Positions 37,667 through 55,729 of a stretch of 64,000 nt of DNA are shown here, piece by piece. The DNA is taken from assembly GCF_014204985.1 (NCBI RefSeq), contig NZ_JACHMP010000001.1:1240001-1304000 (forward strand). Reading direction: 5' to 3'. The translations under genes were made by a program, and so were the position numbers. The first letter of the stretch is position 1, and each line of letters starts with the position of its first letter. The notes below the pieces were generated by a model. The model did not search any database and had not been told where the DNA came from. It worked only from the letters and a program-made list of their open reading frames with translations. Source of the DNA: Streptosporangium becharense (GTDB taxonomy: Bacteria; Actinomycetota; Actinomycetes; Streptosporangiales; Streptosporangiaceae).

Positions 37667-40600
37667 CTACGGGTTGACCTTGATGGTGAAGGTCGAGGTG
37701 GTGTTCCTGATGTCCTGGAAGTTGCCGCTCATCCGCAGGTTGTTGAACGTCACCGAACCGACCGCCGGCCCCTGGTCCGGCTCGGGCAGCTCGTTGGCCC
37801 AGATGGCGAAGCCCGACTTGGCGTCGTAGGCGTCCCCGCTCCTGCGGGCGCCCGTGATCGTGATGTTCGTGAAGACCGTGTCCTTGATGGGGTTCTCCGG
37901 CCGTCCTCCGCTGTACTTCGTCTGGAACATGATGCCGTGGTAGGTCGGGTCGACGATGTCCACGTCGCTGACCCGGATGCCCTGGAAGACCTTCGAGGCG
38001 GAGAAGACCCAGATGCCGGGGAAGGTCTGCGCACCCCAGAAGTGGCCGCCGGCGCGGACGATCGAGATGTTCTCGAACCTCGTCGGCGGATCGGCGCCGA
38101 AGCCGTTCATCGGGTAGCCGAAGTCGAGCGAGCTGATCGTGATCCCGGAGTAGACCAGCGTGTCCGCGATGTGGATGTTCCGGAAGACGTTGTCGTAGCC
38201 GCCGTAGACGGCGATGCCCGCGGCGCGCCAGGGCAGGATGGCCGTCAGGTTCTCGTAGACGTTGCCCTTCATGTCGGCCCCGCCGGCGTCGATGGCGGAG
38301 AACAGCGCGAAGCTGTCGTCGCCGGTGGCGCGGGCCTCGTTGTTGCTGACGAGGTTGTCGGTGCTGCCGTTCGTCATGTTGACGCCGTCGGCGAACATGT
38401 TGCGGATCCGGGAGTTCTTGATCGTCACACGGTCGGTGTTGGCGCCCCAGTACAGGCAGACCATGTGCTCGTTCCAAATGTCGTCGATCACGATGTCGGT
38501 GATGTTCGAGAAGTCGAACACCTTGCCCGGGCCGTCGACGCGCGAGGTGTAGTTGCCGAAGTAGGCGAAGCCGGTGAACGAGGAGCCCTTGGCGGTGGCG
38601 TCCGCGCGGAAGCCCACGTCGGTGTTGTCCTGCGTCGCCGGCGCGTGGAACCGGGTGTACCACGGTCCGGCGCCGGCCACCTTCACCGCCTTGCCGTGCA
38701 CCTGGAACTTCTCCGCCGTCTGGTACGTGCCCGGCGGCAGGTAGACGCCGACCAGGGTGCCCGTGTCGTCCATGCGGACCCGGTCGAGTGCGTTCTGCAC
38801 GTCCTGGTGGGTGAAGCCCGCGGGAACCGCGTATCTGGCGGGGTCGGGGTTCGGCAGGGGCGAGACCTGCTCGGTGTCGATGAAGTCGATCGCGTACGTC
38901 GTCGTGTTGGCCGGGTCCTTCTGCAGCCTGATCTTGCTGCCGGCCTGGACGGTCCGGCCCAGCATGATGTTGGCCTCGTCGTAGATGTGGCGCGGCCCGC
39001 CGGCGCTCGGGGAGTTTCCGGGGCTCGCCTCAGGTCCGTACAGCCAGGCGTACTTCGAGGTCAGGTCGATGGCCTTGAGGAAGGTGCCGTCGACGTAGAC
39101 GTTGAGCGTCGAGGAGATGCCGCCGCCGCCGGGGGCGTCCGGGATGGAGAAGCGGGTGACGAGCGTATTGGTGCTGGCCCTGGTGGTGAACTCGACGTAG
39201 CTGCCCGTCGTGTCGAGCGTCACCGCCCTGCGGCCGGACGCCTCGCCCGCCGGGTCGCCGATGGTCCGGTTCGGGCCGACCACGGCCGCGCCGCCGCCGG
39301 TGACGGCGTCCTCCGCCTCGTAGTGGTCGTAGGGCATGTCCGCGCCGCGACCGGTGAACAGGCGGTGGGTGCCGGTGTTGTTGGCGCGCTTGACCGGAAG
39401 CTCGTTGGCGTCGTCGGCGAGCACGACCTTGACGGTGTACTTGCCGTCGGCGGCCTTCCAGGTGCCCAGGTCGACCGGGGCCGTGACGGCTCCGGCGGCG
39501 ATCACGCCGGTGTGCGAGCCGGTCAGTGTGCGGACGACGGCGCCCGCGCCGTCGATGACCGTCAGGGTCACGTCGTGGGCGCCGGAGGCGGAGGCCACGG
39601 CGCCCTGGTTCTTGATCACCACGGAGAAGGCGACCGTGTCGCCGCCGCGCGGGTTGCCCGGTGTCCAGGTGACGGAGGAGGCGACCAGGTCGGAGCTGTC
39701 GACGGGCTTGACGACGAGCGGCGAGGGGTGGACGTGGGTGTTGTTGGCGTCGTTCTGCTCGATGACGATGCCGGCCTCGTCCACCTTGGCGCTCAGCGGG
39801 TAGGTCCCGGCGTCCCGGCGACCGGCGTCGGCCGTGACCGTGGCGCTCGCCCCGGCGGCCAGGGCACCGACGGGAGCGGTGCCGGCGAGTGCGCCGTCCA
39901 GGTAGAAGGTGACGTTCGTGGCGCCGGAGCGCGCCGTGCCGATGTTCTTGACGGTCGCCTTCAGTGTGACGGCGTCGGTCTCCGTCGGAGCGGCCGGGGA
40001 CGACGACATGCCGGTGATCGTCAGGTCGGGGTTGGACGCGGAGGTGCCGATCACCTGGAACTCGGCGACCTGCCCGCCCGTGGCGCCGGAGTTGGCGGTG
40101 ATGCGGAGCTGCACGTCGGCGACCGTGGCGGTGACCGGGATGGTCACGGTGTTGCCGGTGGCGGGGTCGAAGGTGTGTACCGCCGCCGCCGACAGGCTGG
40201 TGAAGGCCGAGGCGCTCTGCTCGCGGCCGAGCACCTGGACGGTCTGGGTGCGCGTCGCCCACTCGGCGGCGGGGTTGAGCTTCAGCACGACCGAGCCGAC
40301 GTCGGCGTTCGCCCCCAGCTTGACGGTCAGCGTGTGGGGGTAGCCGCCCGCGCCGCCCTCCCAGTAGGTCGTCACGCTTCCGTCGTTGGCGTTCTCGGCG
40401 ACATAGGTGTGGATCGTGGACGAGGCGGTGATCGGCTTGCCGACGGCCAGGTTCGTGTCGCCGCCGGTGCCGTGGCGGGTGACGGTGTTGCTGGCGGCGG
40501 ACCGGTTGCCCGCGGCGTCCCTGGCCTTGACGTGGTACGACACGGTCGCGCCGACCGGCTGGACGTCGGTGTGGGTCAGCACGTCGCCCGGCACGCTCTT

Positions 40601-41257
40601 GCGCAGTGTGCCGTTGGCGTAGAGGTCGTACCCGGTCACGCCCACGTTGTCGGCCGACGCGGCCCAGGTCAGTTTGATCTGCCCGGCCGCGGGCTCGGTG
40701 AAGGCCAGGCCGCCCGGAGCGGTCGGCGGCTGCGTGTCACCGGTGGCGGGTCCGTAGATCTCCAGCTCGGACAGCTGCCCGGCCGGCCAGCCGGTGTTGG
40801 CCGTGATGTGCAGCCGCACGTAGCGGGTGACGGCCGTGGTAAGACCGATCGTCACCGTGTTGCCGGTGGCGGGGTTGAAGGTGTGGCCCGCCGACGCCAC
40901 CAGGGTGGTGAAGCCGGAGCCGTCGGCGCTGCCCTGCACGGTGAGGGTCTGGGTGCGGCTCTCCCAGCCCGCCGGCAGCTTCAGTACGAGCCTGTTCACA
41001 CCGGTCGGGGCGCCGAGATCGACCTGGGCCCACTGCGGGAAGGCATTGTTGGCGCTCTCCCAGTAGCTGGCCTGGTCGCCGTCGTTGAGGTTGCGGGGCA
41101 CGTAGACGTCGTGGGAGCCGCCGGCCGAGGCCGTCCTGCCCGCCGCCAGGTTGGGTCCGTCCGCCGCCGAGGCCGGGGAGGGCGGCCCCGCGGTGACGAG
41201 AAGGCAGGTCGCGGCCATCGCCGCGACCAACCGTAAGAGCAGATGCTTGCTGCGCAT
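37667..41257 (-). CDS. Secreted multidomain beta-helix glycosidase, GH87 alpha-1,3-glucanase/mycodextranase type
   Basis: Large 1196-residue exported protein. In order: signal peptide (1-32), F5/8-type discoidin domain (about 35-160), fibronectin III (about 165-250), second discoidin domain (260-385), two CARDB domains (about 390-590), a CBM35/6-like domain (starting YDHYEAEDAV) and a right-handed beta-helix (about 750-1196). The helix carries FADGVNMTNG (Asp957) and ATGDDSFALFS (Asp980-Asp981), the spacing of the catalytic aspartates I know from GH87 enzymes. This suggests hydrolysis of alpha-1,3-glucan, for example fungal cell walls. The ATG at 41257 follows AGAGGAACC. It is a single-gene unit with its own terminators. 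Another beta-helix polysaccharidase class is the main alternative. Confidence 0.8.
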   Translation of the reverse strand: MRSKHLLLRLVAAMAATCLLVTAGPPSPASAADGPNLAAGRTASAGGSHDVYVPRNLNDGDQASYWESANNAFPQWAQVDLGAPTGVNRLVLKLPAGWESRTQTLTVQGSADGSGFTTLVASAGHTFNPATGNTVTIGLTTAVTRYVRLHITANTGWPAGQLSELEIYGPATGDTQPPTAPGGLAFTEPAAGQIKLTWAASADNVGVTGYDLYANGTLRKSVPGDVLTHTDVQPVGATVSYHVKARDAAGNRSAASNTVTRHGTGGDTNLAVGKPITASSTIHTYVAENANDGSVTTYWEGGAGGYPHTLTVKLGANADVGSVVLKLNPAAEWATRTQTVQVLGREQSASAFTSLSAAAVHTFDPATGNTVTIPVTATVADVQLRITANSGATGGQVAEFQVIGTSASNPDLTITGMSSSPAAPTETDAVTLKATVKNIGTARSGATNVTFYLDGALAGTAPVGALAAGASATVTADAGRRDAGTYPLSAKVDEAGIVIEQNDANNTHVHPSPLVVKPVDSSDLVASSVTWTPGNPRGGDTVAFSVVIKNQGAVASASGAHDVTLTVIDGAGAVVRTLTGSHTGVIAAGAVTAPVDLGTWKAADGKYTVKVVLADDANELPVKRANNTGTHRLFTGRGADMPYDHYEAEDAVTGGGAAVVGPNRTIGDPAGEASGRRAVTLDTTGSYVEFTTRASTNTLVTRFSIPDAPGGGGISSTLNVYVDGTFLKAIDLTSKYAWLYGPEASPGNSPSAGGPRHIYDEANIMLGRTVQAGSKIRLQKDPANTTTYAIDFIDTEQVSPLPNPDPARYAVPAGFTHQDVQNALDRVRMDDTGTLVGVYLPPGTYQTAEKFQVHGKAVKVAGAGPWYTRFHAPATQDNTDVGFRADATAKGSSFTGFAYFGNYTSRVDGPGKVFDFSNITDIVIDDIWNEHMVCLYWGANTDRVTIKNSRIRNMFADGVNMTNGSTDNLVSNNEARATGDDSFALFSAIDAGGADMKGNVYENLTAILPWRAAGIAVYGGYDNVFRNIHIADTLVYSGITISSLDFGYPMNGFGADPPTRFENISIVRAGGHFWGAQTFPGIWVFSASKVFQGIRVSDVDIVDPTYHGIMFQTKYSGGRPENPIKDTVFTNITITGARRSGDAYDAKSGFAIWANELPEPDQGPAVGSVTFNNLRMSGNFQDIRNTTSTFTIKVNP

Positions 41258-42136
41258 TGGTTCCTCTATCTGTCGTCCGGGACGACCGGGGGGTGTCGGT
41301 GGCCGGGCCGCCGGTCCCGGAGGAGGGATGACCGGCGGGCTGCGGAGTGCGTGGACGTCGGGCCCACGGCGGGTCCGGAGGACGACGCGCGAGCCTGCGC
41401 CGACGCGCGGAAGCGGGGGCACCGCGGCGCAGGCGCCACGACCGGAGCGCCGAGACGGAAGCTGCGTGGGTGCTGCGGCAGGGGCCGAGGCGAGGGCGGG
41501 GGTGGCGGGCGGCGACCTGCCGCGTGACACCGGGACCGGCATCATCTGGGGCCTCTCTGTGAACGGGAACGCAAGACATGGCAGATGCATGCGTGTTTTG
41601 CAGAGAGAAGAAAGAAGACGATGGATTTTTTGTAAAAATATTACATCGAGATGACCAGATGTTACATAGGTGCTACGACCGCGTCAACGGTCCGGTAAGT
41701 GCGGCTTGTCGGGGAGACAGGCTCCTCTGATCTGCGATCGCACCAACCGTCCCACCGGCCCGTCCGGCGATCCGGCACAGCCCGGCACAGTCCGGCACAA
41801 CCCGGCGACACGCATCGGCTCCCGGCGTCGGCTCCGGACGTGTGGACGAGCCGATGAAAAGGCATGCCCGGGACACGGCAGATGTCCGTCGTCTTCTTCC
41901 GGTCATCGCTAAGGTAATCGTCAGACCATCGGGGCATCGTGCAACCGGATGCCCTCCTCACGGGCGGTGAAGACGGGGGAACCGGCCACCCCGCGACCGG
42001 AGACGCCGGGCCGCGTGCCGATGCGCCTGCCACCGCGGTGCGAGCCACCTGAGGGCCGGCCCGGCCCCGCGGGCCCGCGCTCGCAAACCCGGCCGGGACC
42101 GGCATGAGCGCCTCCGCCGGCCCCGCGGGCCCGCGC
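41258..42136. other. Long intergenic region upstream of the GH87-type gene
   Basis: These 879 bases contain no convincing gene: the open frames lack ribosome-binding sites and are rich in Arg/Pro/Ala. About 41580-41670 is distinctly AT-rich and holds a promoter-like element. CCGGCACAG-type words repeat near 41770-41800. A 22-bp direct repeat (42061-42082 and 42117-42138) ends across the stop codon of the neighbouring membrane-protein gene. Confidence 0.6.
41638..41665 (-). promoter_or_regulatory. AT-rich promoter candidate of the GH87-type gene with TTACAT direct repeats
   Basis: On the minus strand GTAACA (41665-41660) and TAATAT (41643-41638) are 16 bases apart. The plus-strand word TTACAT occurs at 41641-41646 and 41662-41667, exactly 21 bases (two helical turns) apart, so a regulator could bind both and cover the promoter. 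The implied leader is about 370 bases. Confidence 0.4.
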
Positions 42137-42730
42137 TCACGCCTCCTTGGGCCTGCGCCAGCGCTGGTCGGCCGCCAGCCACGCGCGTTCCCAGCGGGCG
42201 TACCGGCGGCGGTCGAGCCGGGCACGCGCCAGGGAGTAGAGCAGCCCGCCGGTCCCGGCGGCCACGGCGGTCAGGCCCACCGCGGCGAGGATCGCCTTCG
42301 CGACGGTGTCGAGCCGGGCGGGCGGTCCTAGAACCGGCCTGCCGGAAGGATCCAGCCACACCCGTGCCGTGCCGCCCGTCCTGGACCCCTGGAGCACGGG
42401 GGCCAGGGCGGTGACGGTTGCCCCCCGCTCGTCCGTCCACCGCACCCGGACCCGGACCACGGCGGCCCGGCCGCCGGGAGAGGTCCACGTCATCTCGGGG
42501 GCGTCGGCCAGCAGGGTCACGGTCACCCACCGGCCCGACCGTTCGGCCGCCACCCCGTCCCGGTAGGTGTTCACCCCGAGCACGGCCGCCGCCGCGACGC
42601 CGGTGACGAGCAGCGCGAGCACCCCCCACAGGACCAGTGCCTCGACCCGGTCCGAGCGCCGGCGCAGCGGGTTGCCGTCGAACCGGAGCAGGCGGACGTA
42701 CCGTGCCCACGTCGAGGCCACGCCTCGCAT
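42137..42730 (-). CDS. Rv1733c-like double-span membrane protein
   Basis: The 197-residue product has two membrane helices (about 32-52 and 140-165) flanking an extracytoplasmic domain of about 80 residues. The pattern RLLRFDGNPLRRRSDRVEA at the N-terminus, VWLDPSGRPV before the second helix and a basic C-terminus matches the Rv1733c family. The function of that family is unknown, but in M. tuberculosis it belongs to the DosR dormancy regulon. The ATG follows AGGAGGTGGTTTCG, one of the best ribosome-binding sites in the window. It is divergent from the nitroreductase gene, with a DosR-box-like palindrome between them. Confidence 0.82.
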   Translation of the reverse strand: MRGVASTWARYVRLLRFDGNPLRRRSDRVEALVLWGVLALLVTGVAAAAVLGVNTYRDGVAAERSGRWVTVTLLADAPEMTWTSPGGRAAVVRVRVRWTDERGATVTALAPVLQGSRTGGTARVWLDPSGRPVLGPPARLDTVAKAILAAVGLTAVAAGTGGLLYSLARARLDRRRYARWERAWLAADQRWRRPKEA

Positions 42731-42809
42731 CGAAACCACCTCCTGGGTCCTCGGCCAAGGATCACCGTGCCGGGAGCGGTCGTTCCAGGGTCGTTCGCCG
42801 TGTCCGGGC

Positions 42810-42823
42810 GGGACGTTGGTCCC
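42810..42823. promoter_or_regulatory. DosR/DevR-box-like palindrome between Rv1733c-like and nitroreductase genes
   Basis: GGGAC at 42810-42814 and GTCCC at 42819-42823 are separated by four bases, the exact core spacing of the mycobacterial DosR box, with flanking C/G extending the symmetry. A second half-site, AGTCCC (42843-42848), reads GGGACTTTCGC on the minus strand. The full site is centred 86 bases before one start codon and 117 before the other. Confidence 0.6.
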
Positions 42824-42932
42824 GTGTCCCGCACCCGGCGAAAGTCCCTCGCGGGCGGGTCCTCCGGCCCTGCCGCGGGCCCTCCGCCCGGACGAGCGTG
42901 GACGGCGAAAACCCCGACCATGGAGGTGTGCC

Positions 42933-43883
42933 GTGTCCTCACCCCTCGCCACCGATCTCGGAGTCCGCCGGCTGCTGACCGCCGCAGGACAGGCTCCGTC
43001 GGTGCACAACACCCAGCCGTGGAGGTTCAGGGTGGTCGGCAGGGAGGCGGTCGAGCTGCTGGCCGACCGGGACCGGTGGCTGCGGGTGAGCGACCCGCGC
43101 GGACGTTCCCTCCACGTGAGCTGCGGAGCGGCCCTGTTCAACCTCCGTCTGGCCGTGCGGGTGGCCGGGTGGCTGCCGATCACCCGGCTGCTGCCCGCTC
43201 CCGACGACTACCCGGATCTGCTCGCCACGGTGCGCGTGCCCCGGGTCAGCCCGCCCTCCCCCGCCGAGCGCGACCTGTACGCGTCCATCGCCCTGCGCCG
43301 CACCAACCGATACCCCTACGAGGACCGGAGCGTGCCGGCCGAGGTCGTCGACGACATGCGCGCCGCCGCGGCGGCCGAGGGGGCCTCGCTGTTCATGACC
43401 GACCCCGCGGACCTGCTCGACCACGTGGCGATCGCCGAGGAGGGGCTGGCCCGCGACCGCGACTACCGGGCCGAGCTGGCCGCGTGGACGATGCCGAAGG
43501 CCCGGCACGACGGCGTTCCCGGCTACGTGCAGGGGCCGCGCGGCGCCAAGGACCCGTCCCCGACCCGTGACTTCGGCCGCCACGAGCACACCGCGCGCTT
43601 CGAGCCGCATCCGCAGATCGCGGTGCTCACCACAGCGGGTGACGGCCCGCGTGACTGGCTGCGCGCCGGCCAGGCCCTGCAGCGGGTGCTGCTCACCGCG
43701 ACGCTGCACGACGTGTCCGCGTCGTTCCTCAACCAGCCGCTGGACCTGCGCGACATCCTGCGCCACACCGATCCGCGCCATGCCCTCGGACACCCCCAGA
43801 TGATCATGAGGTTCGGGTACGGCCCGCCCGTGCCCCGCGCTCCCCGCCGCCCGGCGGCGGAGCTGGAGACCAGCTACGTCTGA
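42933..43883 (+). CDS. Acg-type nitroreductase family protein
   Basis: The 316-residue FMN-dependent nitroreductase-fold protein is of the Acg (Rv2032/Rv3127/Rv3131) subfamily, which in mycobacteria is induced by hypoxia; the catalytic role is unclear. It has the N-terminal flavin motif PSVHNTQPWRF (about 18-28), the RRTNRYPYEDR segment in mid-protein and a C-terminal MIMRFGYGP. The GTG start follows GGAGG. It is divergent from the Rv1733c-like gene and is followed by pflB in the same direction. Function in redox balancing is inferred from subfamily and neighbourhood. Confidence 0.88.
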   Translation: MSSPLATDLGVRRLLTAAGQAPSVHNTQPWRFRVVGREAVELLADRDRWLRVSDPRGRSLHVSCGAALFNLRLAVRVAGWLPITRLLPAPDDYPDLLATVRVPRVSPPSPAERDLYASIALRRTNRYPYEDRSVPAEVVDDMRAAAAAEGASLFMTDPADLLDHVAIAEEGLARDRDYRAELAAWTMPKARHDGVPGYVQGPRGAKDPSPTRDFGRHEHTARFEPHPQIAVLTTAGDGPRDWLRAGQALQRVLLTATLHDVSASFLNQPLDLRDILRHTDPRHALGHPQMIMRFGYGPPVPRAPRRPAAELETSYV

Positions 43884-43928
43884 CGGCCGCGAGGAGGGTA
43901 CGGGCGCCGCGGCCCCGCGGCGCCCGTG

Positions 43929-43942
43929 AGGACCTAGGTCCC
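43929..43942. promoter_or_regulatory. DosR/DevR-box-like palindrome upstream of pflB
   Basis: AGGAC at 43929-43933, CTAG, then GTCCC at 43938-43942: nine of ten core positions fit GGGAC-N4-GTCCC, and the central 12 bases GGACCTAGGTCC are perfectly palindromic. A half-site GGGAC lies at 43983-43987, 54 bases away. The site is centred 100 bases before the pflB start. Confidence 0.55.
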
Positions 43943-44035
43943 GCCCATCGGTGACCTCCGCTCCGTGATCGGCGGCCCGGGCGGGACGACAGTGGGATCA
44001 GAACTTCGACACGGGCTCGACACGAGGGGGATTCG

Positions 44036-46324
44036 ATGACGGCCACACCGGTCACCGGGGAACCGGCGGAACTGACGGATCTGGCGGCACCGGCGGGGCC
44101 GGCCGCGTGGCGCGGGTTCCGCGGGACGACGTGGCGCGCGGCGATCGACGTGCGCGACTTCGTCCAGGCCAACTACACGCCGTACGAAGGCGACGAGGGA
44201 TTCCTGGCCGGGCCCACGGAGCGCACCCTGGCGGTGTGGGCGAAGGTCTCCGCGCTGTTCCCCGAGGAGCGGCGGCGCGGGATCCACGACGTGGACGTCA
44301 CCACCCCGTCGTCGATCACCGCCCACCGGCCCGGCCACATCGACCCCGAGCGTGAGCTGATCGTCGGGTTGCAGACCGACGCCCCGCTGAAGCGGGCCAT
44401 CATGCCCGCCGGGGGGCTGCGGATGGTGGAGAACGGCCTGGCCGCCTACGGTCGCACGCTCGACCCGCGGGTACGGGAGATCTTCACCAAGTACCGCAAG
44501 ACCCACAACGACGCCGTGTTCGACGCCTACACCCCGGAGATCCGCAACGCCCGCCGCTCCGGGATCATCACCGGGCTGCCCGACTCCTACGGCCGCGGCC
44601 GGATCATCGGCGACTACCGGCGGGTCGCCCTGTACGGCGTGGACCGGCTGATCGAGGCCAAGCGGGGTGAGCTGCGCTCCCTCGACGGCGCCGCCGCCTC
44701 CGACGCGGTGATCCGCGACCGGGAGGAACTGGCCGAGCAGCTGCGCGCGCTGGACGAGCTGAAGCAGATGGCCGCCTCCTACGGCCACGACGTCTCCCGG
44801 CCCGCCACCACCGCGCACGAGGCCGTCCAGTGGCTGTACCTCGGCTATCTGGCCGCGGTGAAGGAACAGAACGGCGCGGCCATGTCGCTGGGCCGCACCT
44901 CCACCTTCCTGGACGTCTATCTGGAACGGGACCTCGCCGAAGGGCTGATCACCGAGGAGCGGGCACAGGAACTGATCGACGACTTCGTCATCAAGCTGCG
45001 CATCGTCCGATTCCTGCGCACCCCCGAGTACGACCAGCTGTTCTCCGGCGACCCCACCTGGGTCACCGAGTCGATCGGCGGCATCGGAACGGACGGCAGG
45101 ACACTGGTGACCCGCACCAGCTACCGCTACCTGCAGACGCTGCGCAACCTCGGCCCCGCACCCGAGCCGAACCTGACCGTCTTCTGGTCGCCCCGGCTGC
45201 CGGAGGCTTTCAAGCGGTTCTGTGCCCGGCTGTCGATCGAGACCAGTTCCATCCAGTACGAGAGCGACGAGCTGATGCGGCCGCGTCTCGGCGACGACGC
45301 CGCCATCGCCTGCTGCGTCTCGGCCGCCCCGGTCGGCCGGCAGATGCAGTTCTTCGGCGCCCGCGTCAACCTCGCCAAGACGCTGCTGTACGCGATCAAC
45401 GGCGGCCGCGACGAGATGACCGGCGAGCAGGTCGGCCCCGTCTGCCCGCCGCTGACCGGGGAGTATCTCGACGAGGAGGAGGTCCGTGCGGCGTTCGACC
45501 GGATGCTGGACTGGCTGGCCGCCACGTACGTGAACGCGCTGAACATCATCCACTACATGCACGACAAGTACGCCTACGAACGCATCGAGATGGCGCTGCA
45601 CGACCATCCCGTCAAGCGCACGCTCGCCTGCGGCATCGCCGGCCTGTCGGTGGCCGCCGACAGCCTGTCGGCCATCCGGCACGCGCGGGTCCGGGTCGTC
45701 CGCGACGAGACCGGCCTGGCGGTGGACTACGTCGTCGAGGGCGACTACCCGGCCTACGGCAACAACGACGACCGCGCCGACGCCATCGCCGTCGACCTGG
45801 TCCGCTCCTTCATGGACAAGATCCGGCGGCACCCGGCCTACCGGGACGCCGAGCACACCCAGTCGGTGCTCACCATCACCTCCAACGTCGTGTACGGCAA
45901 GCACACCGGCAACACGCCCGACGGCCGGCGCGCGGGCGAACCGTTCGCGCCCGGCGCCAACCCGATGAACGGCCGCGACCGGCGCGGCCTGGTCGCCTCG
46001 GCGCTGTCGGTCTCCAAGATCCCCTACGGGCAGGCTCTCGACGGCGTCTCCCTGACGAACACGGTAACGCCCGAGGGGCTGGGCCGTACCGACGCCGAGC
46101 GCGTGGGCAACCTGGTCGGGGTGCTGGACGGCTACTTCGACGCCGGCGGGTTCCACATGAACGTCAACGTGCTCACCCGCGCCGTGCTGCTGGACGCCAT
46201 GGAGCACCCCGACAGGTACCCGCAGCTGACCGTCCGGGTCTCCGGGTACGCCGTCAACTTCGTCCGGCTGACCCGCGAGCAGCAGCAGGACGTCGTCAAC
46301 CGCACCTTCCACGGATCGCTGTGA
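44036..46324 (+). CDS. pflB: Pyruvate formate-lyase (formate C-acetyltransferase)
   Basis: Glycyl-radical enzyme converting pyruvate and CoA to acetyl-CoA and formate without oxygen. The 762-residue length matches E. coli PflB (760). The active-site cysteine pair lies in [20 protein letters not shown] (Cys426-Cys427), and the radical glycine in RVSGYAV (Gly737), followed by [14 protein letters not shown]. The CC pair separates it from glycerol dehydratase and other glycyl-radical enzymes. The start follows GAGGGGGATTCG. It overlaps pflA by four bases. A DosR-like box upstream suggests induction under oxygen limitation. No formate channel or formate dehydrogenase lies nearby. Confidence 0.96.
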
Positions 46325-47112
46325 ACCCCCGTGAGGAGGTGCTCCTGCAGGCCGCCGCCGAGCTGCGCCGGCCGCCGGCCGCGGCCGGCGCCGGCGTCAT
46401 CGAGTCCTGGGACGTCTCCGTCGGCGTGGACGGCCCCGGCACCAGGTTCGTGGTGTTCACCTGCGGCTGCCCGCTCAGGTGCCTGTACTGCCACAACCCC
46501 GAGACCTGGCGGATGCGTGACGGGCGGCGGGTCACCGTCGACGAGGTGATGGCGGAACTGGAGGGATACCGGCGGTTCATCTCCGTGGCGGGCGGCGGGG
46601 TCACCGTCAGCGGCGGCGAACCACTGCTGCAGCCCGGTTTCACCGCCGAGTTGCTCCGCCGCTGCCACGACGGCGGCCTGCACACCGCCCTGGACACCTC
46701 GGGGTTCCTCGGCGACCGCGCCACCGACGCGATGCTCGCCGACACCGACCTGGTCCTGCTGGACATCAAGTCGTCGGATCCGGACGGCTACCGGCGGCTG
46801 ACGGGCGTCTGCCTGGAACCGACCCTGCGCTTCGCCCGCCGCCTCGCCGAACTCGGCCGCCCGGCCTGGGTGCGCTTCGTCCTCGTCCCCGGCCTCACCG
46901 ACGATCCGGGCAACGTGGACGGCCTGGCCCGGTTCGCCGCGGAGCTGGGCAACGTCGAGCGGGTCGACGTCCTGCCCTTCCACCGCATGGCCACCGGGAA
47001 GTACCGGCGGCTCGGCCTCCGTTTCCCCCTGGCCGACGTCGAACCCCCGGACCGGGCGCTCCTCGCGCGGGTCCACGCCCAGTTCCAGGCGTACGGTGTG
47101 ACCAGCGTCTGA
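46321..47112 (+). CDS. pflA: Pyruvate formate-lyase activating enzyme (radical SAM)
   Basis: Generates the glycyl radical on PflB using S-adenosylmethionine and a 4Fe-4S cluster. The 263 residues contain the radical-SAM cluster motif CPLRCLYC (Cys50, Cys54, Cys57), the SAM-binding [14 protein letters not shown] stretch and a partial TIM barrel ending near [13 protein letters not shown]. The GTG start overlaps the pflB stop in GTGA, so the two are translated as a coupled pair. The single-cluster architecture (no extra ferredoxin domain) is that of classic PflA. Confidence 0.95.
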
Positions 47113-47171
47113 GCACGGCGCCGCCCCGGCCGCGTACGGCGGCCCCCGACGACCCCGGTGGCCCCGGTGGC

Positions 47172-47252
47172 CCGGTGCCTTAAGGGCCGACGCCTCGAGA
47201 CCGGTGCCTTAAGAACCGACGCCTCGGGACCGGTGCCTCGGGGCCGGCATCC
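47172..47252. repeat. 29-bp tandem repeat, 2.8 copies
   Basis: Units start at 47172, 47201 and 47230 with CCGGTGCCT; the first two copies differ at only a few positions (CCTTAAGGG versus CCTTAAGAA), and the third is partial and diverged. It fills the gap between the convergent ends of pflA and the histidine kinase gene, where no ordinary terminator hairpin is obvious. Confidence 0.7.
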
Positions 47253-47289
47253 GGAATCCTCGGGCCCCGGAATCCTGCGCCGGCCCGGT

Positions 47290-49014
47290 TCACCCGGACG
47301 GCGTCTCACCGAGCGGCACACGCCAGCACAGCGACGACCCTCCTTCGGGCCGGGGTTCGAACGCGAAGACGCCACCGAGGCTCTCGGCCCGCTCCTGGAG
47401 GTTGCGCAACCCGCTGCGGCGCCCGCCGGGGCGGGGGCCGACCCCGTTGTCCTCCACGACGAGGACCAGCTCACCGCCCTGGGCCTGCACGGTCACGTCC
47501 ACCCGGGAGGCGCGGGCGTGCCGGACGGCGTTGGACAGCGCCTCGCGCAGCACCGCGAGCAGGTGCTCGGCCAGCCGTGGCGGCACCTGGTTGTCCAGCT
47601 GCCCCTCCAGCTTCAGGCCCGGCATGAAGCCGAGATGGCCGCGGCCCGCCTCGACCAGTTCGACGATCTGCGCTCGCAAGCTGGGGGTCTCGGTGTCGCG
47701 CGGCGCCTGCAGGGCGAAGATGGTGGAGCGGATCTGCCGGATGGTCTCGTCCAGCTCGTCGATCGCGGTCTGCAGCCGGGAGGACGCCTCCGGGCGGTCC
47801 ACCAGCCGGACGGTGCTCATCAGCGTCATGGCCACCGCGAACAGGCGCTGGATGACCACGTCGTGCAGGTCCTTGGCGATGCGGTCGCGGTCTTCCAGCA
47901 GGCCGAGCCGCTCGGCGTCCTTGCGCCTCTCGGCCAGCTCCAGGGTGATGGCGGCCTGCCCCGCGAAGGCGTGCAGCATGCGCAGCTCGGCCTCGCTGAA
48001 CGGGAGCCGGCCGGAACGCTTGTTCAGCGTCAGCACGCCGCGGACGGTCCCGGCCGCGCCCAGCGGCACGGCCGCCGCAGGTCCGCCCCGGACGCCCCCG
48101 TTCTCCGCCTGCGAGCCGCCACCCCCCGCTGGGCCGGCGACCATGACGGGCTCGCCCCCGGTGAGGGCACGGCCGGCCAGGGTGTCCTCGACGACCGTCT
48201 CCGCGCGCTCGAACGGGCCGGTGTCCACCCCGTCCGCGCCGTCCACGTTCACCGTGATCAGGTGCTCGCGGGTGCGGTCGGGCAACAGGACGGCCGCCAC
48301 GTCGGCGTCGGCCATCTCGCGGGCCCGGCGCGCCATGAGCGTGAGCACCTCGCCGGGCTCCGCCCCGGACAGCAGGCTCGTGGTGATCTCCGAGGAGGCC
48401 CGCAGCCACGTCTCCCTGCGCCGCGTCTCCTCATACAGCCGGGCGTTCTCGATCGCGACACCGGCCGCGGTGGCCAGCGCCATGACGATCGCCTGGTCGT
48501 CCTCGTCGAACTCCCCGCCGCCCCGCTTCTCGGTCAGGTAGAGGTTGCCGAACACCTCGTCCCGCACCCGCAGCGGGACGCCCAGGAACGACCCCATCGG
48601 GGGGTGGCCGGGCGGGAAGCCGTAGGACTCGGGATGGTCGGAGATGCGCGTCAGCCGCAGCGGCACCGGCTCCTTGATGAGGAGGCCGAGCACTCCCAGC
48701 CCGTGCGGCCAGTGCTCGATCCGGGCGATCTCCTCCTCCGTGAGACCGACCGGGATGAACTGCACCAGGGTGTTCCCCTGCCCCACCACGCCCAGGGCTC
48801 CGTAGCCGGCGTCCACGAGCGTGGTGGCGGTCTGCACGATCCGCCGCAGGACGGTCTCCAGGTCCAGGTCGCTGCCCACCGAGACCACCGCGTCGAGCAG
48901 GGCGTGCACGCGGTCCCGGGTCGCCAGCACCGCTTCCAGGCGGAGCTGGAGCTCGGCGAGGAGTTCGTCCAGGCGCATGTTGGGCAGCAGCGGGCGGGCC
49001 TCATCGTGGGTCAC
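47290..49014 (-). CDS. DosS/DevS-like double-GAF sensor histidine kinase
   Basis: The 574-residue kinase resembles mycobacterial DosS. GAF-A (about 50-200) includes SYGFPPGHPPMGSFLGVP (His137); I recall the corresponding histidine as the haem ligand of DosS, which would make this an oxygen/NO/CO or redox sensor. GAF-B spans about 215-365. The HisKA_3 dimerisation domain has KDLHDVVIQRLF with phospho-acceptor His384, and the HATPase domain has EALSNAVRHA and DNGVGPRPGG. The GTG at 49014 precedes THDEARPLLPNMRLDELL. There is no adjacent response regulator. It is convergent with pflA. Confidence 0.9.
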   Translation of the reverse strand: MTHDEARPLLPNMRLDELLAELQLRLEAVLATRDRVHALLDAVVSVGSDLDLETVLRRIVQTATTLVDAGYGALGVVGQGNTLVQFIPVGLTEEEIARIEHWPHGLGVLGLLIKEPVPLRLTRISDHPESYGFPPGHPPMGSFLGVPLRVRDEVFGNLYLTEKRGGGEFDEDDQAIVMALATAAGVAIENARLYEETRRRETWLRASSEITTSLLSGAEPGEVLTLMARRAREMADADVAAVLLPDRTREHLITVNVDGADGVDTGPFERAETVVEDTLAGRALTGGEPVMVAGPAGGGGSQAENGGVRGGPAAAVPLGAAGTVRGVLTLNKRSGRLPFSEAELRMLHAFAGQAAITLELAERRKDAERLGLLEDRDRIAKDLHDVVIQRLFAVAMTLMSTVRLVDRPEASSRLQTAIDELDETIRQIRSTIFALQAPRDTETPSLRAQIVELVEAGRGHLGFMPGLKLEGQLDNQVPPRLAEHLLAVLREALSNAVRHARASRVDVTVQAQGGELVLVVEDNGVGPRPGGRRSGLRNLQERAESLGGVFAFEPRPEGGSSLCWRVPLGETPSG

Positions 49015-49094: not shown

Positions 49095-49925
49095 TCAGGA
49101 GAGCGCGCTGACCGGGACCTGGTCCATGTCGGCGAACGACTGGTTCTCCCCGGCCATCGCCCAGACGAACGCGTAGTTGCGGGTCCCCACCCCGAAGTGC
49201 ACCGACCAGCTCGGCGAGATCACCGCCTGCCGGTCCCGCAGCACCATGCTGCGCGTGCTGTCGGGCTGCCCCATCATGTGGACGATGCGGTCCTCGCTGG
49301 GGAGGTCGAAGTACAGGTAGACCTCGGTGCGCCGGTCGTGGACGTGGGGCGGCATGCTGTTCCACACGCTGCCCGGTTCGAGCACCGTGATCCCCAGGAC
49401 CAGCTGGGAGCTCGGCACGCCGTCGGCGTGGACGTGCTTGTAGATGACCCTCCGGTTCGCGGTCTCCTGCGCTCCGGCCTCGGTGCGGTGCGCCTGGTCC
49501 AGGGGGACGAGCGTGGTCGGGTGGGCGGCGTGCGAGAGCGCCGACACGAGGTAGAACACCGCGTCCCCGGTCGTCTCCGCGCCGAACACGACGTCGCGCG
49601 CACCCCGGCCCACGTAGAGGACGTCCATGTGGGCCAGGTCGTACCGGTGCCCGTCGACCTCGACGTGCCCCGCCCGGCCGACGCACACCACGGCGAGTTC
49701 ACGCCGTTCGCAGAAGTGCTCGGCCCGGAGCGGGCCGGCGGACTCCAGCCGCAGCGGCCGGCCGGCCACGGGGACGGCGCCGCCGACGACCATCCGGTCC
49801 TCGTGGGAGTAGAGCAGGGATACCTCACCCTCGACGAACAGGTCGTCGACCACGAAACGGTCGCGGAGCCGGTCGCTGTCCAGCCCTTCCAGCTCTGACG
49901 GGTGGGTGGCGTGACGGACCTTCAT
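49095..49925 (-). CDS. kduI: 5-keto 4-deoxyuronate isomerase KduI
   Basis: Isomerises 5-keto-4-deoxyuronate to 2,5-diketo-3-deoxygluconate in breakdown of pectin or other uronate polymers. The 276-residue double-cupin protein shows the family zinc-site segment NSMPPHVHDRRTEVYLYFDL and the N-terminal MKVRHATHP...FVVDDLF pattern. The ATG is followed immediately by typical KduI sequence. It is the last gene of the minus-strand uronate cluster, separated from the upstream dehydrogenase by a tandem-repeat spacer of about 240 bases, and abuts the histidine kinase gene (80-base gap). Confidence 0.94.
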   Translation of the reverse strand: MKVRHATHPSELEGLDSDRLRDRFVVDDLFVEGEVSLLYSHEDRMVVGGAVPVAGRPLRLESAGPLRAEHFCERRELAVVCVGRAGHVEVDGHRYDLAHMDVLYVGRGARDVVFGAETTGDAVFYLVSALSHAAHPTTLVPLDQAHRTEAGAQETANRRVIYKHVHADGVPSSQLVLGITVLEPGSVWNSMPPHVHDRRTEVYLYFDLPSEDRIVHMMGQPDSTRSMVLRDRQAVISPSWSVHFGVGTRNYAFVWAMAGENQSFADMDQVPVSALS

Positions 49926-49951
49926 GGCGGCGGTTGCCTTTCTCAGCGGTA

Positions 49952-50150
49952 CCCGGCGGCGTGGGCGGTCTGGCCGACGCCCGGCGGTGTGGACGACCTG
50001 AGCCGACGCTCAGGGATATGGGCGACCTGAGCCGGAGCTCAGGGGTGCGAACGGCCCGAGCCGGTGCTCGGGGAGTGGGACGACCTGGACCGACTCTCGG
50101 AGGTGCGGGCGGTCTGAGCCGGAGCCCGGCGGCGTGGAACGCCGAGCGGG
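49952..50150. repeat. 29-bp degenerate tandem repeat, about six to seven copies
   Basis: Units begin at 49952 (28 bp), 49980, 50009, 50038, 50067, 50096 and 50125 (partial). They share a CCCGG/CTCGG start, GG(C/A)CGxCCTGAGCCG in the middle and a final (A/C)CG or GAG. There are no intervening unique sequences. The array fills the space between a dehydrogenase stop and the kduI start, where the kduI ribosome-binding region should lie. Confidence 0.75.
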
Positions 50151-50163
50151 GCGGCCCACGCCG

Positions 50164-51120
50164 TCAGGAGACGACGTTGGTCGGGGTGCCCGCGGCGAAG
50201 TTGACGATGTTCTCGCCGGCCAGCCGGAAGACGTCGTCGGCCTCGTCGGTGTGGAACCCGACGTGGGGGGTCAGCACGATGTTCCCCGCCCCGGGGATCG
50301 TCTCCGGCTCGGGCGGTTCCCGGTCGAAGACGTCGAGACCGAGGCCGAAGATCCTCCCGTTCCCGGCGAGTTCGACCGCGTACGCGGTGTCGAGGATCTC
50401 CGCGCGTGCGGTGTTGACGAGGATCGCGTCGGACGGCAGCAGGTCGAGCAGGGCCCTGCCGACGAGACGGTCGGTGTCGGGGGTGTGGGCCAGGTGCAGT
50501 GACACCACGGAGCAGGACCGGAACAGCTCATCCAGGTCGGCGTACCGGGCGCCGAGCTCCAGGTCCCGTTCGGGCGAACGGGACCTGGACCAGTACACCG
50601 GGGTCATGCCCAGCCCGCGGGCGAGCCCGATGACCCGCGAGCCGATGGCGCCGGCGCCGACGACCCCGAACCGGCGGCCGGCGAGCTTCAGGCCCTGGTG
50701 CTTGGCCCACCGCCCCGAGCGCACGATGCCGTCGCCCTCCACCACGCGCCTGGCGACGGCGAGGGTCAGCGCGATCGTGTGCTCGGCGACGCTGGCGGAG
50801 GCGAAGTCCGGGACGTTGGTGACGGCGGCTCCCGTCTCCGCGGCCTCGGCCATGTTGACGAACCGGCGTGCGCCAGTCCCCACGAAGCTCACCAGCCGCA
50901 GGCCCGGGTTCGCGCGGAGCAGTCCGTCCGGGACCGGGCCCTGGTCGCCGACGACGTACAGCGCGTCGTACCCGGCGGCCCGGGAGATCGCGGCCGGGAC
51001 GTCGTCGAACCTCTCCTCGAACCAGTCGAACGTGTGGCCGGCGGCGGCGAGGGGACGGGCCACGTCCCTGTCCACGATGTCGCGGTACTGCGCTTCGCCG
51101 TCGATGCAGACAATCCTCAT
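50164..51120 (-). CDS. D-2-hydroxyacid dehydrogenase (NAD-dependent)
   Basis: The 318-residue oxidoreductase reduces 2-keto acids or oxidises D-2-hydroxy acids. The dinucleotide motif is GVVGAGAIGSRVIG (about 150-163), and the catalytic Arg, Glu and His fall in NTARAEI, DVFDREPP and LTPHVGFHTDEA. The ATG starts at MRIVCID. It follows the solute-binding protein gene by 46 bases and precedes the repeat array and kduI. In a uronate pathway it might act on a keto-deoxy sugar acid, but the substrate is not readable from sequence. Confidence 0.88.
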   Translation of the reverse strand: MRIVCIDGEAQYRDIVDRDVARPLAAAGHTFDWFEERFDDVPAAISRAAGYDALYVVGDQGPVPDGLLRANPGLRLVSFVGTGARRFVNMAEAAETGAAVTNVPDFASASVAEHTIALTLAVARRVVEGDGIVRSGRWAKHQGLKLAGRRFGVVGAGAIGSRVIGLARGLGMTPVYWSRSRSPERDLELGARYADLDELFRSCSVVSLHLAHTPDTDRLVGRALLDLLPSDAILVNTARAEILDTAYAVELAGNGRIFGLGLDVFDREPPEPETIPGAGNIVLTPHVGFHTDEADDVFRLAGENIVNFAAGTPTNVVS

Positions 51121-51166
51121 GCTGAGACCTCGGCTGTCGGGCGGGATGTGGGCGTGTGGTGCGGGA

Positions 51167-52267
51167 TCACTTTCCGACCCAGCGGTTGAACCGGTCGACG
51201 ATCTGGGTCAGGTTCTTCTGGTAGTAGACGCCGTCCTGCTTGACCGCGGACCTGACGTTGTCCCCGAGCGGCAGGTAGGGCTGGATGTCCTGGGGGTAGG
51301 CGCTCGGGTCCGCTCCCTTGACCGCGGCGGGGATCGGCGTCGGGATCTTGGAGGCGAAGGCGATCTGGCCGGCCTCGTCGTTGATGACGTCGGCGATCAG
51401 CTGCTGGGCCGCGGCGGCGTTCGGCGCGCCGGCCGGGACGGCCCACACGCTGTTCGAGTAGCCGCCGTCCTTCCAGCTGATCGCCATCGGGAACCCGGCG
51501 CGCTTGGCGACCAGCGCACGGTTGGCCCAGAGGATCCCGATGTCGCACGAACCGTTCTCGAAGTTGGCGATGGAGTCGGCACCGCTCGACCACCAGGTGA
51601 TGTCGTTCTTGATCCCGTCCAGCTTCTTCAGCGCCCGCTCGACGTCCAGCGGGTACAGCTTGTCCGCGGTGACCCCGTCGGCGAGCAGCGCCGCCTCCAG
51701 GGTCCAGCCGTACTGGGGGTTGTTGAAGAAGCAGCGCTTGCCCGGGAACTTGGCGACGTCGAACAGGTCGGCGACCGACGACGGCTGCGCGTCCGCCGGA
51801 TAGGCCTTCTCGTCCCACGCCAGCACCATGCCGAACGTGCCGACCTGGACCCCGTACTTGTCGTACGACCCGGACTCCAGCTTGTCGACGGGCACCACGG
51901 ACGTGTCGAGCTCGGCGAGGTATCCCTTCTCGGCCGCCGCGGCCGCGTCGCCGACGGTCGGCAGGAACACCAGGCTCCACGGCACCTGCTTGGCCTCGGC
52001 GGCGGCGATGAACTTGGTCGAGGCCTCGTTGTAGTCGTCCGAGACGGTGACGCCCGTCTTCTTGGTGAAGTTGGCGAACAGCGTGGCCGACAACTCGGTC
52101 CACACCTCGCCGCCGCTCGTGTCGTAGAACATGATGTCGCCGCCGATCGCGCCGGTGCCCGCGGACGTCGATCCGTCCGCGCCGCCGCTCTCGCCCGAAC
52201 ACGCGGTGAGGGCCAGCACGGACGCCACGGCCGCGGTCAGCGTCAGTCTCATGCGGGATGTGCTCAT
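51167..52267 (-). CDS. ABC transporter substrate-binding lipoprotein (POPT family)
   Basis: The 366-residue lipoprotein has a signal peptide ending at a LTACSGE lipobox (Cys23) and a periplasmic-binding-protein type II fold like spermidine/putrescine or Fe3+-type binders. Segments such as GDIMFYDTSGG, SCDIGILWANRALVAKR and VPAGAPNAAAAQQLI support this. The start ATG follows GGAGACATCACC. It belongs with the downstream-numbered ATPase and fused-permease genes, upstream of it in the same transcript. A uronate or other acidic ligand is suggested only by the surrounding kdu genes. Confidence 0.87.
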   Translation of the reverse strand: MSTSRMRLTLTAAVASVLALTACSGESGGADGSTSAGTGAIGGDIMFYDTSGGEVWTELSATLFANFTKKTGVTVSDDYNEASTKFIAAAEAKQVPWSLVFLPTVGDAAAAAEKGYLAELDTSVVPVDKLESGSYDKYGVQVGTFGMVLAWDEKAYPADAQPSSVADLFDVAKFPGKRCFFNNPQYGWTLEAALLADGVTADKLYPLDVERALKKLDGIKNDITWWSSGADSIANFENGSCDIGILWANRALVAKRAGFPMAISWKDGGYSNSVWAVPAGAPNAAAAQQLIADVINDEAGQIAFASKIPTPIPAAVKGADPSAYPQDIQPYLPLGDNVRSAVKQDGVYYQKNLTQIVDRFNRWVGK

Positions 52268-52369
52268 GGTGATGTCTCCTGTCGCTCTGGAGAAGAGGAG
52301 GACCTGGGGGAAGGGAGAACTCGGAGGGAGAACTGGAAGAGGAGGTGCGGGAAAGAGGAGAGGGGACGG

Positions 52370-52432
52370 CTCGCGTCCCGGTCGGCGCGGCTCACGTGTC
52401 AGTCGGCGTGGCTCGCGTCCCGGTCGGTGCGG
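52370..52432. repeat. Three 21-bp tandem repeats spanning the ATPase stop codon
   Basis: Units at 52370, 52391 and 52412 (CTCGCGTCCCGGTCGGCGCGG type) run from inside the last codons of the transporter ATPase to beyond its stop. Because 21 is a multiple of three, they encode a seven-residue repeat (RTDRDAS-like) in the protein tail. A purine-rich stretch (52289-52369) follows towards the binding-protein gene. Confidence 0.7.
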
Positions 52433-53568
52433 CCCGTGCTCCGGTCACCGTGCGGGACCACGGCGGCCTGGCCGTCGCGGACGCACATCTGGACCCGGTC
52501 GCCGACGAGCGGATGCTCCCCGGCGGGGTCGACGGCGGCGTGGTAGACGCGCTCCCCCGCCCGGAGGGTGATGGCGTGTCGCTGCCCGAGGAACCGGGAG
52601 GCGGTCACCTCGGCCGGGCCGAGCACGCCGAGCCCGGGCGGCGGTACGGTTCCGGCTTCGACGATGACCATCTGCTCCGGCCGCACCGCGCAGTGCACGG
52701 CGCCGGAGGTGATCGCGCTGTCGGGAGGCAGGCAGACCACCGTCCCGCCCCCGACGGCGACGACGGTGTCCGGGCCCCCGTCGACGAGGTGGCCGTCGAA
52801 GAGGTTCGTCTCGCCGAGGAACCGGGCGACGAACCGGTCGGCCGGCCGCCGGTACAGGGCCTCCGGCGTCCCGGTCTGCCGGATCGCCCCCGCGTCCATG
52901 ACCGCCATCCGGTCCGAGAGCAGGAACGCCTCGTCCTGGTCGTGGGTCACGTAGATCGCGGTGGTCTCGGCCTCCTGCTGGATTCTCCGCACCTCCGCGC
53001 CGAGCTCCTGCCGCAGGCGCCGGTCGAGGGCACCCAGCGGTTCGTCCAGCAGCAGCACCCGGGGACGCTGGGCGAGCGCCCGGCCGAGGGCGACCCGCTG
53101 TTGCTGGCCGCCGCTCAGCTCGCCGGGGTGCCGGTCGCCGAAGCCCCCGAGCGCCACGAGTTCGAGGATCTCGGTGACCCGCCGCCGCCGGGCGGCCGGG
53201 TCGATCTTCCGCACCCGGAGCCCGAACTCGATGTTCTCCGCCACGGTGAGGTGCGGGAAGAGCGCGTAGTTCTGGAACACGAAGCCGATGTCGCGTTTCT
53301 GCGGCGGCAGGCCGGTCACGTCCTGGCCGTCGAGGTGGATCCGCCCGGAGCCGGGTTCGAGCAGGCCGCCGATCAGGCGCAGCAGCGTGGTCTTTCCCGA
53401 TCCGCTCGGTCCCAGCAGGGTGAAGAACTCCCCCGCCTCGACGTGCAGGTCGACTTCGTCCAGGGCGGTGACCCCGCCGTAGGCGAGCCTGATCGCCTCC
53501 GCCCGGACCTCCCCCCGCCGTACCGGCGTGGTCACGTCGCCCGGACGCGTTCGCACTGCGGATCTCAT
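52399..53568 (-). CDS. ABC transporter ATP-binding protein (PotA-like)
   Basis: Energises the importer. The 389 residues contain Walker A (GPSGSGKTTLLR), the Q-loop (VFQNYALFPHLTV), the signature LSGGQQQRVALGRALA, Walker B (VLLLDEPLGALD) and the switch His in VTHDQDEA. A C-terminal TOBE/OB domain follows (about 290-370). The start ATG overlaps the fused permease stop in ATGA and follows GGAGGTACCTC. The tail is repetitive and encoded by 21-bp tandem repeats. Similarity to PotA/FbpC-type ATPases fits the rest of the transporter. Confidence 0.94.
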   Translation of the reverse strand: MRSAVRTRPGDVTTPVRRGEVRAEAIRLAYGGVTALDEVDLHVEAGEFFTLLGPSGSGKTTLLRLIGGLLEPGSGRIHLDGQDVTGLPPQKRDIGFVFQNYALFPHLTVAENIEFGLRVRKIDPAARRRRVTEILELVALGGFGDRHPGELSGGQQQRVALGRALAQRPRVLLLDEPLGALDRRLRQELGAEVRRIQQEAETTAIYVTHDQDEAFLLSDRMAVMDAGAIRQTGTPEALYRRPADRFVARFLGETNLFDGHLVDGGPDTVVAVGGGTVVCLPPDSAITSGAVHCAVRPEQMVIVEAGTVPPPGLGVLGPAEVTASRFLGQRHAITLRAGERVYHAAVDPAGEHPLVGDRVQMCVRDGQAAVVPHGDRSTGRTDRDASHAD

Positions 53569-55331: not shown

Positions 55332-55729
55332 GCGTCCTCCGGGGTGGCCGCCGTCACGCGGCAGATCGTGTAGATCTTGCGGACGGTCGAGGTCACGGTC
55401 CACCGGCCCGTCCACCCCTCCGGCAGGATGACCGTCACGCCCGGGCGGATGTCGGAGTGCGTGCCGTCGGCGTGGTCGAGGCGTCCCTCCCCGGAGAGGA
55501 AGTGCATGATCTCCGAGCAGCCGGCCTTGCGGGAGTCGAACACGCCGGGGGTGACCTCCCAGACGCCGACCTCGACCTCCGGCGACTCGTGGAGCACGTG
55601 CTCGGCCGTCCGCGGATCGCCCGAGACGACGACCTGGGGGCTGCCGGTGGGGGTGAGGGGGAGGTCGCGCGCGTCGTGGTCGTCGATACCGACCGGTGCG
55701 GGGACGGCGTTCTCGATGGGGGCGGTCAT
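55328..55729 (-). CDS. Cupin domain protein (DUF861/EutQ-like)
   Basis: The 133-residue single-domain cupin of the DUF861 type is related to ureidoglycine aminohydrolase-like and EutQ-like proteins. The core is VWEVTPGVFDSRKAGCSEIMHFLSG followed by PGVTVILPEGWTGRWTV. The usual first-motif histidines are largely replaced, so metal binding is uncertain. Both ends overlap neighbours by four bases (ATGA with the dehydrogenase upstream and the permease downstream), so it is tightly coupled to them. Its role in the pathway is unknown. Confidence 0.83.
   Translation of the reverse strand: MTAPIENAVPAPVGIDDHDARDLPLTPTGSPQVVVSGDPRTAEHVLHESPEVEVGVWEVTPGVFDSRKAGCSEIMHFLSGEGRLDHADGTHSDIRPGVTVILPEGWTGRWTVTSTVRKIYTICRVTAATPEDA

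Follow-up and report, generated by a model that had tools for sequence, protein, structure and literature searches.

A pyruvate formate-lyase block of Streptosporangium becharense as a probable piece of a dispersed DosR/OsdR-type hypoxia regulon

To our knowledge, and in our judgement, the anoxic survival of mycelial actinomycetes is poorly explained. The mycobacterial DosR (DevR) box has the consensus GGGAC-N4-GTCCC, which was the starting pattern of our box scan, we know of no pflB in the DosR regulon of Mycobacterium tuberculosis, and pyruvate formate-lyase (PFL) is classically controlled by FNR/ArcA in place of a haem-GAF kinase. The locus under study is a block of five genes (42137..49014) in a 64-kb stretch of the Streptosporangium becharense genome (G000:C1:1240001-1304000, hereafter the window; genome of 7.82 Mb in two contigs), and it is read here, with a probability of roughly 0.8 and from sequence, as one part of a hypoxia regulon of the DosR/OsdR type that is dispersed over the genome and has a fermentative arm. 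In Streptomyces coelicolor, the regulon of OsdR overlaps that of DevR, with the consensus AGGGCCGATCGGCCCT, and the main text of the corresponding paper does not contain the word ‘formate’ (PMC5069765). Furthermore, Table 2 of a study on S. lividans lists a putative PFL (SLIV_36865) and an N-terminal fragment of an activase (a putative pseudogene) as co-varying with OsdR, together with nitroreductase, PPOx, universal stress protein (USP), alcohol dehydrogenase, Nar, CydAB and PPDK, and the term ‘pyruvate formate-lyase’ occurs twice in that paper, both times in this table (PMC6302529). The composition of the regulon is thus partly in print, and the remark of an earlier note on this DNA that no such regulon had been described was overstated. 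An intact, conserved PFL arm with a promoter box was not seen among the literature matches listed, which included no paper recognisable as treating PFL as a DosR/OsdR target.

The five genes are contiguous, as had been noted earlier, and comprise an Rv1733c-family gene (minus strand), acg (plus strand), the overlapping pair pflB-pflA (plus strand) and a sensor kinase gene (minus strand), followed by kduI. The names proposed for them proved right, four being assigned by NCBIfam curated cut-offs and the kinase, which was over no NCBIfam kinase cut-off, by Pfam domains and solved relatives. No Pfam match was found for the Rv1733c-family protein, and another acg copy, 43% identical to that of the window, is present elsewhere in the genome. 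The sole PFL-like gene of the genome is pflB, whose product has PFL-like and Gly_radical domains with the motifs ACCVSA (Cys-Cys) and RVSGYAV; the start of pflA overlaps the pflB stop and its product has the motif CPLRCLYC, all three being motifs of significance for these enzymes. By its equivalog score, glycyl-radical domain, Cys-Cys pair and cognate activase, PflB is a member of the PFL family (TIGR01255), and the production of formate and acetyl-CoA from pyruvate is its predicted activity.

The strongest evidence for DosR-type control, absent from the earlier note, is a pair of sites of the form RGGACNWWNGTCCY, a DosR-type palindrome with a weak centre. Exactly two of them occur in the window (42810 and 43929), one in each promoter region of the block, and this number is beyond chance, as none of 100 dinucleotide shuffles of the window reached two (mean 0.07). 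The looser form RGGACNNNNGTCCY, also found twice in the window, was rejected as a measure on its own, two or more sites appearing in 14 of 100 shuffles (not significant). Downstream of the pflB box, the half-site GTGAC of a second element (GGTGACCTC) lies 22 bp past the first base of the 43929 box, and the place of this element was conserved by column in 22 aligned pflB promoters of the family Streptosporangiaceae, its own included, which makes it a possible secondary DevR site. An element GGTGAC(C/T)TC was observed at the matching place of many family pflB promoters, the distance of 22 bp being about two helical turns.

The DosR-type identity proposed for the system was corroborated by these promoter boxes, by a DevR orthologue and by the residues of the kinase that align with the proximal haem His and the distal Tyr. 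Judged by its sequence, a NarL-type response regulator encoded at L031:6580-7239, 635 kb from the block, is a clear DevR (DosR) orthologue, with an E-value of 3e-79 to PDB 3c3w compared with 2e-43 for the next regulator. It keeps D54, K179, K182 and N183, which presumably have the functional roles of these positions in DevR, and its gene starts 37 bp after a box of its own (651529). Directly upstream of this box, at L031:6440-6525, about eight head-to-tail copies of the 9-base unit CGCCGGACA were observed. As for the kinase, its best solved relatives were the GAF-A domains of DevS and 2vzw, which we take to be DosT (E-values from 6e-52 to 1.5e-49). Its GAF-A aligned to that of DevS free of gaps, with His137 at DosS His149, Tyr159 at Tyr171 and Gly75 at the place of Glu87, the numbering offset between the chain and DosS being our own arithmetic from five extra residues of the chain. 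In DosS, His149 is the proximal haem ligand and Tyr171 the distal residue, and DosT has at the Glu87 place a glycine proposed to permit stable oxygen binding (PMC4082495). Moreover, His137 and Tyr159 were kept in 15 of 15 kinase homologues and His384 in all 14 reaching that far (L097 repeats L066), and haem binding and switch-off by oxygen are predicted for the kinase.

Adjacency of regulator and kinase genes is usual and not necessary, dosT of M. tuberculosis being remote from dosR. The 33 matches in the genome included a single full-length homologue, the kinase of the block, and a strong match to it was found in 14 of the 15 other genomes of the genus. In 8 of these 14, a devR at least 86% identical lay within 1 kb of a kinase homologue, 6 of the 8 having the exact box just upstream of devR; a total of 16 kinase regions was examined, some copies of multi-copy congeners lying outside this sample. 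The adjacent copy was the best-matching kinase in 6 of the 8 genomes, and the other two (G196 and G204) had their best copy 6-7 kb off and a second copy adjacent. Among the remaining congeners, one had a devR fragment 8 kb away and five had no devR in the examined stretch. Since the homologues are adjacent in 8 of 14 congeners and the kinase is the sole full-length one here, kinase and DevR are probably partners despite their split genes.

Across the whole genome, RGGACNNNNGTCCY had 65 sites compared with 28 for the reversed control, and the longer form RKGACNTTNGTCCY had 14 compared with 0. Eight of these 14 have the full RGGAC half-site (RGGACNTTNGTCCY), and seven of the eight adjoin dormancy-type or anaerobic-respiration genes (Table 1), gene scans covering sites other than the AT-centred ones (L041, L043, L206 and others) and stretches other than L041-L044. 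The eighth, on the small contig C2, falls inside a predicted unrelated gene and was rejected, as were the GTGAC/ATGAC variants of the genome, all six of which lie inside or beside unrelated genes. The signature genes Acg, Rv1733c, USP, P-type ATPase and PPOx were present in the genome, several of them at boxes. Boxes of the GGGAC and GGGCC types were also observed at L037:8488 and L037:11866 (G000:C1 about 2294488 and 2297866). They fall inside the crude open reading frames (ORFs) of a multicopper-oxidase membrane protein, nitrite-reductase-like at a guess, and of narG, in each case probably ahead of the real start, and the regulon may extend to nitrate reduction. Another box-bearing gene (L033:10641-11246, ‘doxX201’) encodes a membrane protein of 201 aa found near pflB in 9 of 31 family loci, and it may correspond to the SCO0201-like entry in the table on S. 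lividans.

Table 1. Genes and DosR-type boxes of the block (window positions, given as ranges) and RGGAC-type boxes of the genome (single genome positions).
Feature	Position	Strand	Remarks
Rv1733c-family membrane protein	42137..42730	-	197 aa; NF050032 (Rv1733c_fam) 124 bits, cut-off 80; two hydrophobic stretches by eye
DosR-type box GGGACGTTGGTCCC	42810..42823	.	in the divergent Rv1733c-acg spacer; 79 bp to the Rv1733c start, 109 bp to the acg start
Acg/Rv3131-family FMN oxidoreductase (nitroreductase family)	42933..43883	+	316 aa; NF047509 304 bits, cut-off 199
DosR-type box AGGACCTAGGTCCC	43929..43942	.	93 bp upstream of pflB start; position weight matrix score 19.3, 99% control threshold 11.6
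Second promoter element GGTGACCTC	43950..43958	+	candidate secondary DevR site
pflB, formate C-acetyltransferase	44036..46324	+	762 aa; TIGR01255 (pyr_form_ly_1) 1168 bits, cut-off 994
pflA, PFL-activating radical-SAM enzyme	46321..47112	+	263 aa; TIGR02493 (PFLA) 292 bits, cut-off 232
DosS/DosT-type sensor histidine kinase	47290..49014	-	574 aa; GAF-A (about 49-197), GAF-B, HisKA_3 (His384), HATPase_c; Pfam and solved relatives
Box	625254		between USP and PPOx gene; Acg, P-type ATPase and another USP 9-14 kb off, same side
Box	627428		upstream of second PPOx gene
Box	651529		upstream of devR
Box	654855		between cydAB and helix-turn-helix PPOx gene, then alcohol dehydrogenase
Box	696376		upstream of 201-aa membrane protein (no Pfam match) recurring in relatives' islands
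Box	1282810		this block (window 42810)
Box	2294488		multicopper-oxidase/narG region; inside crude ORF call, probably before true start

The coupling of PFL to a dormancy-type system, suggested earlier from the window, was borne out by the neighbours and promoter sites of pflB in relatives. A total of 31 out of 199 other family genomes had pflB, and dormancy-type genes were near it in 25 of these 31 loci compared with 2 of 20 control stretches of the same genomes; at least two kinds of such genes appeared in 21 of the 31 loci compared with 1 of 20 controls. The neighbour thresholds were chosen after the hits were known and had identical values for the controls, and matches below them (e.g. devR-like at 33-37%, ATPase at 27-29%) are present among controls and non-island loci too. 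Five of the six loci lacking dormancy neighbours are short stretches ended by contig ends. The exact five-gene order recurred in none of the 31 pflB loci; acg was upstream of pflB on the same strand in four (L062, L065, L067 and L068), and in L073 an Rv1733c gene is divergent from pflB with a box between them. Conservation in close relatives, the check proposed in the earlier note, therefore held for the association of PFL with dormancy genes (25/31) and failed for the exact block (0/31). Nor is the block self-contained, the regulator and other box-bearing genes lying elsewhere in the genome. The idea of the earlier note was right in substance and wrong on the closed island and the lack of precedent, and the aerobic, spore-forming character that it gave the organism is presumed. 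In three relatives pflA was separate from pflB (downstream in L055, about 3 kb upstream in L056 and L057), and in four (L058, L060, L061 and L071) no pflA was seen in the examined stretch.

For the promoters, 43 non-pfl sites, 37 from the loci of the same relatives and 6 from the own genome, went into a box matrix, with thresholds (99% and 95%) set on 1200 control windows. The upstream regions of pflB exceeded the 99% threshold in 21 of 31 family loci (0.3 expected) and the 95% threshold in 26, compared with a mean of 0.18 and a maximum of 2 out of 31 above 99% for shuffled promoters. In the non-island loci named below, as split by tree labels, the 99% threshold was exceeded by 7 of 26 actinobacterial and 0 of 37 non-actinobacterial promoters. 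DosR-type boxes were observed before pflB also in L113, L116, L117, L124, L125, L128 and L141, all without dormancy neighbours, the box-bearing non-island pflB genes belonging to Cellulosimicrobium, Cellulomonas, Microbacterium and a second Streptomyces PFL clade.

In a further set, the best 80 of 589 PFL loci from named organisms, dormancy-type neighbours were found at 17 loci, all actinobacterial (Acrocarpospora, Sphaerisporangium, Actinomadura, eleven Streptomyces, Virgisporangium, Pseudosporangium and a Frankiaceae bin), and at none of the 37 non-actinobacterial loci. In a tree of 110 PFLs obtained by a quick method, all 41 island copies fell in one clade of 49 rows (SH-aLRT 91) and none among the other 61, the island label requiring 7 changes compared with 33 in shuffles; L096 and L097, duplicates of L057 and L066, were excluded from the tree and included in the named-locus counts. 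The second Streptomyces PFL clade and a Micrococcales clade had no islands. One unknown or stop codon was observed within each aligned pflB span of L105 (Streptomyces caniscabiei), L140 and L144.

The mechanism proposed here starts from gene identity, boxes, orthology and the conservation of box and neighbourhood as read in the sequences, and haem and oxygen sensing, phosphotransfer, DevR binding, hypoxic induction and flux are its inferred steps. When oxygen leaves the haem of GAF-A, the kinase would phosphorylate the DevR orthologue, which would bind the palindromic boxes and turn on the Rv1733c/acg pair and pflBA in the block and, at other loci, its own gene devR along with cytochrome bd, PPOx-type flavoproteins, a USP and probably the nitrate-reductase group. 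PflA would then form the glycyl radical on PflB, PflB would split pyruvate into acetyl-CoA and formate with no use of NAD, and acetate kinase would yield ATP. Since PFL and acetate kinase would give ATP without respiration, the cell could meet its maintenance needs when respiration is limited. The acetate kinase family is present in the genome, and the anaerobic ribonucleotide reductase NrdD is absent from it (the oxygen-independent class II enzyme was not sought).

Several observations weigh against a dispersed hypoxia regulon. The regulator and kinase genes are not adjacent but 635 kb apart, and pflB, absent from all 10 sampled congeners, is accessory for that reason (10 of the 15 other genomes of the genus were taken in, and a weak match of 51 residues in G033 was excluded from the count). 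The bare core GGACNWWNGTCC was not enriched in the genome (22 sites, and 28 when the pattern was reversed as a control), and its five TT/AA-centred sites that lack R/Y flanks (L034, L035, L036, L038 and L039) adjoin unrelated genes; the longer form of the box alone is telling, and the shortest core is not. The exact pattern preceded pflB in just 7 of 31 relatives (5 of 1200 control windows), 10 of 31 pflB promoters were below the 99% threshold, with nothing site-like in L056, L057 and L070, the named island loci exceeded it in 7 of 17 cases (95%: 14 of 17), and the promoters of relatives are non-independent samples. Moreover, FocA was not found in the genome, and no formate dehydrogenase alpha equivalog was over its cut-off in a scan of six of the seven molybdopterin genes, the seventh being split by a stop and the NAD-dependent type not sought. 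A NasC-like protein reached 572 bits compared with the Fdh-alpha cut-off of 666, and an FdhF/YdeP-family protein, whose function is uncertain, reached 940 bits compared with its own cut-off of 582.

Part of this would fit a chance neighbourhood, in which pflBA was recently acquired and is controlled otherwise, by Rex, CRP/FNR or a constitutive promoter: the exact block is not conserved, pflB is missing from the congeners and in the PFL tree the copy from the window groups with those of other family genera. Such a coincidence is judged very unlikely, given the box in the same promoter of 21 of 31 relatives and the dormancy-type genes at 25 of 31 pflB loci compared with 2 of 20 controls; in addition, no Rex-type site was found in the whole window at up to 3 mismatches, nor any CRP-type site from 41574 to 47096 at up to 2, so none in the pflB promoter, the CRP-type pattern being at chance level. 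Membership of the regulon could also be real with PFL serving elsewhere, providing formate for one-carbon/purine synthesis or using 2-oxobutyrate instead of fermenting. TIGR01255 is not known to tell the use of pyruvate from that of 2-oxobutyrate, and the missing FocA and the lack of a certain formate dehydrogenase agree with such a side role, which nevertheless appears unlikely, as the box-bearing partners include cytochrome bd and the narG region, an alcohol dehydrogenase comes after a PPOx gene with a box and the acetate kinase family is present. It seems rather improbable, too, that the kinase responds chiefly to nitric oxide (NO) or redox state and that the block is a nitrosative-stress unit. 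DosS and DosT do respond to NO and carbon monoxide (PMC4082495), DevS/DevR of S. coelicolor has been termed an NO-dependent system (PMC10552308), and the nitrate reductase region bears boxes in the own genome; however, Gly75 stands at the DosS Glu87 place as in DosT, where it was proposed for stable oxygen binding (PMC4082495), PFL would be of no use with oxygen present, and the two inputs are not exclusive.

With the block taken as part of a hypoxia regulon, we lean towards a wider view in which one PFL lineage (Streptosporangiaceae, Streptomyces, Actinomadura, Micromonosporaceae and a Frankiaceae bin) is tied to a DosR/OsdR haem-sensor switch across mycelial actinomycetes. The dormancy regulon of supposed strict aerobes would then include fermentative substrate-level ATP formation, the haem kinase and DevR taking the place that FNR/ArcA have in enteric bacteria. 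If true, a glycyl-radical fermentation enzyme on a dormancy switch would be a concrete source of ATP open to direct genetic test, and the DosR regulon would widen from stress proteins to a low-oxygen energy programme of bd oxidase, nitrate reduction and fermentation; non-pathogenic Streptomyces with the same pflBA pair are possible study organisms. Regarding its surroundings, an alpha-1,3-glucanase that has F5/8-type-C and CARDB domains borders the block on one side (37667-41590), kduI and an ABC transporter of polyamine type border it on the other (49095-55415), and beside them is a core stretch with relA, ruvB, secD, a class II tRNA synthetase and recQ.

Compared with the PFL of facultative anaerobes (Cellulomonas, Bacillota, E. 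coli type), the enzyme belongs to the same equivalog family, TIGR01255, usually encoded as a pflB-pflA pair, but dormancy neighbours were found at 0 of 37 non-actinobacterial and 0 of 26 other actinobacterial non-island loci at the neighbour thresholds used, by definition of the split. With OsdKR of Streptomyces the system shares a DevR-type regulator, a DosT-type kinase, nitroreductase, USPs, PPOx, alcohol dehydrogenase, nitrate reductase and cytochrome bd, as well as a putative PFL in S. lividans. It differs in its boxes, of the GGGAC type here and of the GGGCC type in S. coelicolor (PMC5069765), in its intact pflA, where S. lividans has an activase fragment (PMC6302529), and in its split regulator and kinase genes, which have neighbouring locus numbers in Streptomyces (SCO0204 and SCO0203). 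Finally, the DosR (DevR) regulon of M. tuberculosis is alike in its orthologous regulator, kinase GAF-A, Acg and Rv1733c families and boxes of the GGGAC...GTCCC consensus. Rv3138 of that species, five locus numbers from Rv3133c/dosR, is named a PFL-activating enzyme in a table of PMC3087520, and it may perhaps be a remnant of the same link between PFL and dormancy.

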